Assembly: GCA_016932415.1 (NCBI GenBank)
Contig: JAFGCX010000036.1
Span: forward strand, 38,079 to 102,078
Direction of reading: 5' to 3'
Source: Candidatus Krumholzibacteriota bacterium
GTDB lineage: Bacteria; Krumholzibacteriota; Krumholzibacteriia; Krumholzibacteriales; Krumholzibacteriaceae
DNA: 64,000 nt
The stretch's first letter is position 1. Each line of letters begins with the position of its first letter. Positions 24,278-27,758 of this stretch are shown here, in pieces. Made by a program: the position numbers and the translations under genes. The notes beneath the pieces were generated by a model, which was not told the origin of the DNA, ran no database searches, and saw only the letters and a program-made list of their open reading frames with translations.

Positions 24278-24373
24278 CCCTGAAAAAAATTCTCTGAATG
24301 CCGGAAATAATCTCTTAATGGTTAGAATTCTGTCAACCTGACTGGCAGGCGATCGCCGCGTGACAGTGTAAAT

Positions 24374-24395
24374 TTCCTCGGATCTTGTCGAGGAA
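24374..24395 (+). terminator. Possible terminator hairpin after galE
   Basis: TTCCTCG (24374-24380) and CGAGGAA (24389-24395), eight-base loop, followed by GCCATTTTG. About 100 bases past galE; weak T-run. Confidence 0.3.
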
Positions 24396-24514
24396 GCCAT
24401 TTTGTAACAATTATCATATTATCAAATAATAAGATAGACGGTAAAAAGGATTATTTCGCCAGGCCTGTTGTTCCACTTCGACCTATTTATACCTCTATGG
24501 CATGTTAGTTGCCT

Positions 24515-24530
24515 TATTCACAAGTGAATA
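24515..24530. promoter_or_regulatory. Inverted repeat upstream of the signalling cassette (operator candidate)
   Basis: TATTCAC, two bases, GTGAATA: a perfect 7-bp inverted repeat 38 bases ahead of the kinase start, in an otherwise non-coding, A/T-rich 290-base gap after galE. A good -35/-10 pair is not obvious here. Confidence 0.35.
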
Positions 24531-24567
24531 GGTACGCTGACAGTGGGTTTTATCTGCAGGTAAGGTC

Positions 24568-26595
24568 ATGGTCTTTTCAGATAATACGAGTCATCCAGGC
24601 GAAGAGATGAAAATAAAGCTACTTCAGGGCGTCGATGACGGCGATGTCATGAAGAAGATACTGTTAGAGATGATGGACAGAACAGGTGCTGAATTCTGCG
24701 CTTATTACAGCGGTGGGAAAGATCCATACCTGCATATCCTTCTTGCCAGCAGAGAATTGTCCGCAAGGATCCCTGAAATCAAGGCAAAACTGATCAAGAG
24801 TCATCAGATGTTCTCCAACGGTTTGACGGACAACGGAGAATGCCTCGAAAAGATATATCTTAAAAGTAATGACAATAATATCGCTTATCTGGTGGGAGAA
24901 TCGAAGATAAAGAGTTATTTCCTTGTTCCCGTGATGTCAGACCTACATGTCGCCGGTACTCTTTTCTTAGGCAGCATAAGAGATGACGCTTTCGTAAGGG
25001 AAGATATCGAGTACTTCAGGGATATGGCTGACAGGGAGGATTCCCGAAGGCCTGTCGTCTACAGACTTGGAGGACAGCTTGGCATCCTCGACAAACTTGT
25101 CCGCGAACTGACTATCCCTTGCGCGTTGATATCCCACAATGGATTTATTCTCAGTTCAAACAGCGAATTCGCGTCATTGTTCGATCTTGGCGACGAACCG
25201 GCTGAATCGATCAGATCGCTGGATGACAAGACTCTATTTCATTTCAGCGGTATCTGGAATGAGTTCGAACTTATAGGCGCCGATATCAAGAGCAGGGAAC
25301 TGTGCGCCACGGAATCAAGCGACAGATGCCTATCAGTCGATATGATCCATTTGCGCGAACTGTCAAAGGATGTCGGAGGGCTTCTGCTGGTCCGGGATAT
25401 ATCAGGGCATAAGAGAGAAGAACTCGAAAGAGAGGAAATACTGGCAGTCACTGCTCATGAATTGAGAACGCCGATGGCGGCTCTGAGAAACTCCTTGAAG
25501 ATAATCGCTGACAGCCAGTCAGGCAGATATCCCGGCCGTGACAGGGAAGAGAAGGAAATCAAAACTGAAGACCGGTTCATCCAGACAGCGATCCGTACTA
25601 TCGACCGGCTTAATCTGCTGGTAAACGGGCTTGTAGATTCATCATCGATCAGGTTGAATGATCACCCGGTCGAAGCAGTCCTGACCGATACGAAGAGTTT
25701 TCTCGAAGAAGCAAGCAGGATATTCTTATCCTCAATGGAAAAGAAGGGTATCAGTTTCTCGATAGATGTAGAGGAGAAGGTGAAAACTTTGGTCTTCGAC
25801 CCGATGATGATCGAACAGGTCATTCAGAATCTCCTTTCGAATTCACTTAAATACGTTCCCTCGGGCGGATCTGTCAGCATCAGGGTCAGGTCGGTAGAAA
25901 AGGATAACGAACGTTTCGATTGCGGGCTTATCGATCGACCGGGTTATGCCGAGATAAGGATGATCGATACAGGTCCTGGAATACCTGAAGAGGTAATACT
26001 CGAGTTGAACCGTGAAAATATAGACGGGTACGGGAAAAGAAGCCCCGTGCGCGGCCTGGGATTGTATATAGCCAGGAGGATCATTTCCAGACATGGAGGA
26101 AGCCTGCGTTTTGAGGATCTTGAAAGCGACGGCAGCACGATCAGCATGACGATCCCAGCCGACCGGAAGACCGGTGAAGCTGTAAGATCGATAAACGCGG
26201 CACGTTCACAGATCGATGAAAGTATCTCAAGGGGATATCATCCGGTGGTCTACTATATGTACAAGGAAACAGATGAATGCTGGTTCGATCTTACCGATCT
26301 GATGACAATACAACCGGATATCTATCCGGTACAGGGGAATATCAACGACAGGGGTCTCTTCCTGTGGCCTGTCGATCGGAATACGGCACTGGCTATGACA
26401 CTCAACGGAAACTCCCAGGACGATCCGCTTTTCTTCATACCGGGAAGTAAAGGAGGATTGCGGATCATCGATGACGGAGTAGCGGGTAGAGTGAGGATCG
26501 GGTGGTCGGTCTTTCCGGTTGACGGGTTGAAGTCGGATGATCTGATCAATAACGCCGTAAAAGTAAAGGTTCATGAAGTCGCCGAAATCGATTAG
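24568..26595 (+). CDS. Sensor histidine kinase (GAF-PAS-HisKA-HATPase) with degenerate GGDEF-like C-terminal domain
   Basis: 675 residues, no membrane segments, hence cytosolic. Order: GAF-like sensor (~15-150), PAS-like region (~165-285), dimerisation/phosphoacceptor domain with His297 in VTAHELRTPMAALRNSLKII, and a catalytic ATPase domain with N-box IEQVIQNLLSNSLKYV, G1 MIDTGPGIPEE and G2 RGLGLYIARRII. After the kinase core (from residue ~535) come 140 further residues, not expected in a kinase, that look like a worn GGDEF domain: GLFLWPVDRNTALAMTL occupies the place of the GGDEF hairpin and VRIGWSVFPVDGLKSDDLINNA resembles the terminal SIGVA...D.LL..AD block. Followed within 14 bases by a receiver gene with its own strong ribosome site. 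Confidence 0.88.
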   Translation: MVFSDNTSHPGEEMKIKLLQGVDDGDVMKKILLEMMDRTGAEFCAYYSGGKDPYLHILLASRELSARIPEIKAKLIKSHQMFSNGLTDNGECLEKIYLKSNDNNIAYLVGESKIKSYFLVPVMSDLHVAGTLFLGSIRDDAFVREDIEYFRDMADREDSRRPVVYRLGGQLGILDKLVRELTIPCALISHNGFILSSNSEFASLFDLGDEPAESIRSLDDKTLFHFSGIWNEFELIGADIKSRELCATESSDRCLSVDMIHLRELSKDVGGLLLVRDISGHKREELEREEILAVTAHELRTPMAALRNSLKIIADSQSGRYPGRDREEKEIKTEDRFIQTAIRTIDRLNLLVNGLVDSSSIRLNDHPVEAVLTDTKSFLEEASRIFLSSMEKKGISFSIDVEEKVKTLVFDPMMIEQVIQNLLSNSLKYVPSGGSVSIRVRSVEKDNERFDCGLIDRPGYAEIRMIDTGPGIPEEVILELNRENIDGYGKRSPVRGLGLYIARRIISRHGGSLRFEDLESDGSTISMTIPADRKTGEAVRSINAARSQIDESISRGYHPVVYYMYKETDECWFDLTDLMTIQPDIYPVQGNINDRGLFLWPVDRNTALAMTLNGNSQDDPLFFIPGSKGGLRIIDDGVAGRVRIGWSVFPVDGLKSDDLINNAVKVKVHEVAEID

Positions 26596-26609: not shown

Positions 26610-27023
26610 ATGGATCAATACAGGATCCTGATCGTAGAGGATGATGAAGATATAGTCGAGACTGTCAAATACAGTCTGGAACTGAGAGGTTTTAATGTCG
26701 ATGTGGCATATGACGGGCTTCATGCCTTGCGCAAAGCTCACAGGAACGAATATGATCTTATGCTGCTCGATATTATGCTGCCCGGGAAAAATGGTTATGA
26801 GGTCTCGCGCATACTAAAACAGGAAATGGACGCGGGCAAGATCAAGCCGTTCAGGATCCTCGTCCTTACCGCGCGAAAAGTCGACAGTCCTGAAAGAGAA
26901 GATTTTCTCGCCACCTGGTCGAACGCCGACGAATACATGTACAAACCGTTCGAACTCGATGATCTCATGGAGAGGATCGCCTATCATCTCGGTAAAAACA
27001 AGGAAGAGGTCAGGTTGGCCTGA
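26610..27023 (+). CDS. Single-domain response regulator (receiver)
   Basis: 137 residues, receiver only, no output domain. Acidic pocket EDDED near the N terminus, phosphoacceptor Asp in YDLMLLDIMLPGKNGYEV, switch Thr in RILVLTARK and conserved Lys in YMYKPFELDD. The loop after the Thr (VDSPEREDFLATWSNAD) is longer than usual. AAAGGAGAAAGGGG just upstream gives strong translation. Presumably phosphorylated by the preceding kinase and possibly relaying to the next gene product. Confidence 0.92.
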   Translation: MDQYRILIVEDDEDIVETVKYSLELRGFNVDVAYDGLHALRKAHRNEYDLMLLDIMLPGKNGYEVSRILKQEMDAGKIKPFRILVLTARKVDSPEREDFLATWSNADEYMYKPFELDDLMERIAYHLGKNKEEVRLA

Positions 27024-27080: not shown

Positions 27081-27758
27081 ATGCAGCCGAGTGAATATTT
27101 AGCCAGCGTACTCGACAGTTCCCCTGTTGCTCTCGTATCGTTAGATACGAAGATGAGGATATTGCTGTTCAATCAAGCCGCGCGGGCCATGACGGGATTT
27201 ACGGACATCGATATGGTCGGCCGGCGCATAACGAGGATCTTTCCATTTGAAAAAATCAGGAAGATAATCAGGGCACTCAGAAAGGACGAGAATTTTTTAT
27301 CAAATGGATATGTAACGAAACTGATCGGAGCCCAGGGTCGGGAGATCCCCGTGCGGATCAAGATCTCTCCGGTCAGGGACGGTAAAAACGAGCTTATCGG
27401 CATGCTGATACTTGCTTTCGACCTCAGAGAGATCAAGGTGATGCAGTCGAAACTGATAGAAGCGGAAAGACTCGCCGCGATAACCGAAACAGCCATAAGC
27501 GTCAATCATGAGATCAATAATCCCCTTTGTTCGATTCTTGGAAATACGCAGCTGATGTTGATGCAGAGGGACAATCTTGATCCTAACATCGTCAACAAAC
27601 TGCACAGTATAGAGAAGCAGATATCGAGGATCCAGGAAATAGCGAAACAGCTTGGCAAGATAACGAATCCTGTCCTTAAGGAATATATCGGCGGCAAAAA
27701 GATGCTCGATGTGAAGCATTCCGGGAAAAAAAGAATCAGGCAGCCCGTCAATAAATAA
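27081..27758 (+). CDS. PAS domain protein with histidine-kinase dimerisation domain but no ATPase domain
   Basis: 225 residues. PAS fold at ~5-120 (ASVLDSSPVALVSLDTKMRI, GRRITRIFPFEKI, REIPVRIKISPVRDGKNELIG), then a HisKA-type helical hairpin containing H143 in SVNHEINNPLCSILGNTQLM and a second helix to ~205. The gene ends with a stop codon well before any N-, G1- or G2-box could occur, and the downstream 45 bases lead straight into the tRNA-Phe promoter, so the ATPase domain is truly absent rather than frameshifted. HEINNPL is the motif of the NtrB/hybrid class. GAGGAGA ribosome site. Likely receives phosphate from, or dimerises with, another kinase. Confidence 0.85.
   Translation: MQPSEYLASVLDSSPVALVSLDTKMRILLFNQAARAMTGFTDIDMVGRRITRIFPFEKIRKIIRALRKDENFLSNGYVTKLIGAQGREIPVRIKISPVRDGKNELIGMLILAFDLREIKVMQSKLIEAERLAAITETAISVNHEINNPLCSILGNTQLMLMQRDNLDPNIVNKLHSIEKQISRIQEIAKQLGKITNPVLKEYIGGKKMLDVKHSGKKRIRQPVNK

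Follow-up and report, generated by a model that had tools for sequence, protein, structure and literature searches.

A 675-residue cytosolic histidine kinase encoded in the window (the whole 64,000-nucleotide stretch of Krumholzibacteriota DNA analysed here) ends in a conserved domain that very probably descends from a GGDEF domain, the module that normally makes the messenger c-di-GMP as a diguanylate cyclase. The reading that best explains the whole, to which we give a probability of roughly 55%, is that this pseudo-GGDEF domain, fused to a GAF-PAS-kinase, serves as a protein-contact or tuning module that functions free of nucleotide.

The kinase core in front of the tail is complete, as the original prediction had stated. 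Pfam matches both the HisKA (DHp) domain (residues 288–362, E 2e-9) and the HATPase_c (CA) domain (residues 411–532, E 1.6e-18), and the H-box (HELRTPM, 297–303, with His297 as the candidate phospho-acceptor), N-box (NLLSNSLKY, 421–429), G1-box (DTGPGIP, 467–473) and G2-box (GLGLYIA, 496–502) are all intact. N-terminal to these lie a GAF-like region (residues 26–155), a Pfam match (E 3.4e-4) too weak to pass the model cut-off, and a PAS-like linker (about residues 170–282), assigned by position only. The C-terminal extension of about 140 residues corresponds to residues 535–675, nucleotide 26170 encoding the start of residue 535 (Table 1). Many orthologues (~830 aa), including that of the same-genus locus L032, are longer by some 150 residues at the N-terminus, where they carry an additional GAF-like region. 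The stretch preceding the window gene spans 24278–24567 (+), and the window kinase is without this extra region, an absence that is not specific to the tail finding, since several relatives are without it too.

Table 1. Coordinates of the kinase, the segments of its tail, the neighbouring genes and the second degenerate GGDEF family (window positions unless a locus is named).
Feature	Position	Strand	Basis
Cytosolic histidine kinase, 675 aa	24568..26595	+	ORF list, Pfam, motif positions
Degenerate, remodelled tail, probably GGDEF-derived, residues 535–675	26170..26592	+	Alignments A1/A2, profile comparisons
Strand-1 region	26233..26268	+	GGDEF register, p about 0.0065
CWFD motif (Trp572 invariant in A1)	26278..26289	+	Conservation in tail alignment
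Strand-turn-strand, residues 596–612	26353..26403	+	GGDEF hairpin register
Closing block, residues 642–663	26491..26556	+	Block scan; PDB matches cover the block
Stand-alone receiver (REC-only response regulator), likely partner	26610..27023	+	Pfam, cross-genome comparison
Third gene, PAS + DHp (HisKA), HEINNPL motif, without ATPase domain	27081..27758	+	Conserved in the order
Degenerate GGDEF, second family	L087:2281-2697		
Degenerate GGDEF, second family	L088:991-1401		
Degenerate GGDEF, second family	L089:2183-2587		
Degenerate GGDEF, second family	L090:1892-2305		
Degenerate GGDEF, second family	L091:2748-3128		

A profile search for the tail in related kinases, the check proposed with the original prediction, covered 80 genomes of the phylum and recovered the tail in 29. 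The carriers comprise almost every genome of the order to which the window belongs (families f1 and f2), along with sporadic members of f6, f7 and f8. Among 387 sampled genomes (the 80 of the phylum and about 307 unrelated ones), none from outside the phylum had the tail family. A search for related loci returned only kinase-core relatives without the tail, and viral contigs gave nothing. Between close relatives the dN/dS of the tail is 0.10–0.36, comparable in range to that of their kinase cores, which indicates purifying selection. Judged from sequence, the tail is thus a genuine conserved domain and not chance sequence following a kinase, because it is kept across these 29 genomes at such dN/dS values. 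Invariant or near-invariant positions in the first alignment (A1) are D532, W572, P587, W600, A607 and G645, with C571 at 75%; within the strand-turn-strand GLFLWPVDRNTALAMTL, Trp600 is invariant and Ala607 reaches 96%. The second alignment (A2) comprises 27 rows.

Several profile comparisons point to a GGDEF ancestor. Searched with hmmsearch against 177,635 PDB sequences, the tail profile returned GGDEF proteins in all of its top four places (4urg, 4urq, 4urs and 3icl), the best E-value being 0.022 with 24 sequences in the profile and 0.0047 with 27. Against the 387 genomes it gave four matches outside the phylum, each of which, read individually, is a GGDEF-type protein (motifs FGGDEF, YGGDEF, LGNDEF and LGDDEF). 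Alignment with hhalign to 31 GGDEF domains from within the phylum scored 30.1 (P 2.9e-4), against a maximum of 19.6 in 200 column-shuffled versions and 16.9 for the reversed alignment. These three lines are not fully independent, since all draw on the closing block, and the confident alignment to GGDEF spans about 28–50 residues only; profile similarity is confident for that block and weak elsewhere.

An ungapped block scan located the individual segments. The closing block VRIGWSVFPVDGLKSDDLINNA, the counterpart of the GGDEF SIGVA..PxDG..LL..A, was placed on the SIG..YPxD..L..AD block with 22 bits, a score reached in 0 of 1000 shuffles, so the closing SIGVA-type block that had been read from the sequence does stand in matching register. 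The strand-turn-strand that had been proposed for the place of the GGDEF hairpin also fell in hairpin register (rank 1 of 139), and GYHPVVYYMYKE aligned with GGDEF strand 1 (..LIMDIDDF..), minus its metal-binding Asp (rank 2 of 141), the blocks following one another in the correct order. Taken alone, the likeness of the hairpin and strand-1 blocks to GGDEF is weak, with register-specific p-values of about 0.006–0.01 each that are somewhat generous, because the blocks were picked after the resemblance had been seen. In the remotest member, L132 of genome G032, DTEFEWLGPRVVAWLTG occupies the place of the D....R.GGDEF..LL.. stretch of GGDEF proteins. Taken together, the PDB, genome, hhalign and block-register comparisons support a degenerate GGDEF-like domain at the level of sequence profiles.

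The likeness to the Pfam GGDEF model (PF00990) thus lies in profile similarity and in the shared succession of strand 1, hairpin and closing block, whereas the tail is without the active-site, metal and I-site residues, has its α1-α2 segment shortened and replaced, and falls below every library cut-off. A PF00990 search with E-values up to 10 matched neither the window tail nor any of 24 relatives, and residues 535–675 and single tail relatives matched no model of Pfam or NCBIfam. The Exo70, OXA and other matches obtained from these libraries for single tail members were rejected as chance-level. Also discarded were L134 and L135, weak candidate relatives of the L132 tail that proved to be unrelated genes or reading frames, and a match in G007 (E 0.013), which is an unrelated repeat protein.

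Other non-canonical GGDEF domains occur in the phylum. A second degenerate family (L087–L091) ends GAF-rich proteins with a Rossmann-like N-terminus; as these are not kinases, the domains were rejected as intermediates, and their tie to the kinase tail is through GGDEF alone. A REC-GGDEF-like protein (L057; G000:C11:40958-41218, -) has GGDD in place of GGDEF and a PF00990 match limited to the first half of the domain; it is probably a conserved non-canonical regulator, since similar partial matches occur in nearly every genome of the phylum that was searched. In a relative's genome, a region of about 5 kb (G020:C1:133284-138525) contains several distinct reading frames of 382–836 aa with GGDEF matches.

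The original prediction that all catalytic residues are missing has held. The GG[DE]EF A-site is absent from every row of the tail alignment, with VDRNT in the window protein, and at the position of the metal-binding Asp of strand 1 (DxD) the best register puts Lys566, with Lys in 71% of rows and no conserved Asp. The I-site RxxD, whose place is five residues ahead of the A-site, is absent in register from 23 of 24 rows, the window protein having N..G; the sole exception is L050, whose near-twin L049 has KxxD. In real GGDEF domains the α1-α2 stretch (FK..ND..GH..GD) holds GTP. The corresponding stretch of the tail, which in the window protein opens with CWFD, is shortened and replaced by CW(L/F)(D/E)...W...P.INP...E. 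On current knowledge of the GGDEF family, catalysis by such a tail is excluded, and the known modes of c-di-GMP binding find no support.

These losses bear directly on what the tail may do. The original prediction had offered sensing of GTP or of c-di-GMP-like ligands as one role, and this part found no support: the residues at the A-site, metal-Asp and I-site positions have all changed, and a different, shorter segment stands in place of the GTP cradle. Retained binding of c-di-GMP, or of some other guanine nucleotide, by a pseudo-GGDEF domain that signals the bound state to the kinase would have a precedent in SgmT, and c-di-GMP signalling does exist in the cell, since the genome encodes two canonical GGDEF proteins, one REC-GGDEF-like protein and two PilZ proteins; the near-universal loss of the I-site and the remodelled cradle nevertheless make it highly improbable. 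Nucleotide binding apart, the replaced segment and the hairpin hold the conserved W572, P587, W600 and C571, away from the former catalytic positions, and the CW..P..W region might form a new small-molecule pocket, making the tail a second cytosolic sensor beside GAF and PAS. Conserved Trp, Pro and Cys could equally well belong to a structural core or to an interface between proteins, however, and the Cys has been lost in several lineages, so that a pocket of this kind seems unlikely.

A more basic objection is that the tail may not derive from GGDEF at all, its closing block resembling SIGVA..PxDG..LL..A by chance or convergence in some other α/β fold. The want of a family-library match for any tail member is compatible with this, as are the closing block being the only individually significant segment and the low confidence of a single-sequence AlphaFold model of the tail (pLDDT 33). 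Outside the tail family, however, blind searching of the PDB and the roughly 307 unrelated genomes returns GGDEF proteins and nothing else, and both hairpin and strand 1 fall in GGDEF register, which leaves an unrelated fold distinctly unlikely. Docking, the other role offered by the original prediction, or kinase tuning by a GGDEF-derived tail would fit these observations better than nucleotide sensing.

The gene neighbourhood offers candidates for the partner. In the window the kinase gene is followed by the receiver gene, the PAS-DHp gene and then tRNA-Phe, and the gene series mazG-uvrA-galE-kinase-receiver-PAS/DHp recurs throughout the taxonomic order wherever contigs are long enough to show it. 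Family f7 keeps uvrA-galE-kinase-receiver although its kinase is only about 25% identical, and families f6 and f8 keep the kinase-receiver pair; wherever it was examined on an unbroken contig, the tail-bearing kinase adjoins the same receiver gene, as does that of L132. Receiver identity between genomes is 50–94%, and within the order 76–94% as against 29–61% for the kinase. Conservation so far above that of the kinase suggests that the receiver interacts with numerous partners or that its output is under tight constraint. The PAS-DHp protein carries the motif HEINNPL (HAINNPL in some relatives), and a further motif, LKEYxGGKKMLD, is conserved in its C-terminal part. The protein might act, perhaps as a dedicated partner, as a phosphatase of the receiver or in phosphotransfer with it, because HEINNPL keeps the Asn of the HExxN motif, the residue required for phosphatase activity in HisKA proteins (PMC3510030).

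The closest known system is SgmT of Myxococcus xanthus, whose GAF, kinase and receiver domains are followed by a catalytically dead GGDEF domain at the C-terminus. SgmT binds c-di-GMP via an intact I-site and is sequestered in clusters; deletion of its GGDEF domain gave no phenotype in motility or development (PMC3509222). The two share a cytosolic kinase, an N-terminal GAF, a C-terminal dead GGDEF and conservation among relatives, and the window protein shows the kinase core followed by a dead GGDEF that marks SgmT-type kinases. In SgmT, however, the receiver lies between kinase and GGDEF, whereas in the window it is a separate downstream gene; SgmT has a recognisable degenerate A-site (GGGVF), whereas that of the window tail is unrecognisable; and the intact I-site of SgmT (RHPD), with its demonstrated c-di-GMP binding, contrasts with the absence of an I-site here. 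The window tail is therefore the more degenerate of the two, and it is lineage-restricted. In Campylobacter, the degenerate GGDEF domains of subgroup II, which are without active and inhibitory sites, were judged unlikely c-di-GMP effectors because both sites have been lost (PMC9239204). The genomes of that subgroup are without active diguanylate cyclases, whereas the window genome has canonical GGDEF proteins.

The claim that the arrangement was undescribed accordingly fails in general, given SgmT, and stands for the remodelled version without I-site or receiver, of which no description was found in the literature searched. What is new is the combination: loss of both sites, replacement of the GTP cradle by a conserved motif of its own, long conservation in a single phylum, and a genetic association with a receiver that is encoded separately and strongly conserved.

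The preferred account, of a protein-contact module acting without nucleotide, may be set out as follows. Early in the phylum, a diguanylate-cyclase domain would have become fused behind a cytosolic GAF-PAS-histidine kinase, and would then have lost catalysis and c-di-GMP binding while its α1-α2 GTP-cradle segment was remodelled. The present kinase would sense through GAF and PAS and, following the established two-component logic in which autophosphorylation leads to phosphotransfer to a receiver, would autophosphorylate on His297 and hand the phosphate to the adjoining receiver, a pairing that gene order suggests circumstantially. The tail, directly after the ATPase domain, would act without a nucleotide ligand, tuning the kinase or positioning partners, presumably the neighbouring receiver and possibly the PAS-DHp protein. 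A more specific version, less likely than not, is that the CW..P..W element replacing the GTP cradle either recognises some other ligand or binds one particular partner, as a new regulatory module fixed in the phylum.

The usual explanation of a dead GGDEF domain is that it acts as a c-di-GMP receptor. The tail described here is kept under selection without either nucleotide site, is joined to a kinase, and stands beside a receiver much better conserved than that kinase. As neither Pfam nor NCBIfam covers this domain, the tails of such kinases will be left unannotated. The family offers a clear opportunity to ask whether a pseudo-enzyme of c-di-GMP signalling can contribute to a two-component system solely through its structure or its protein contacts.
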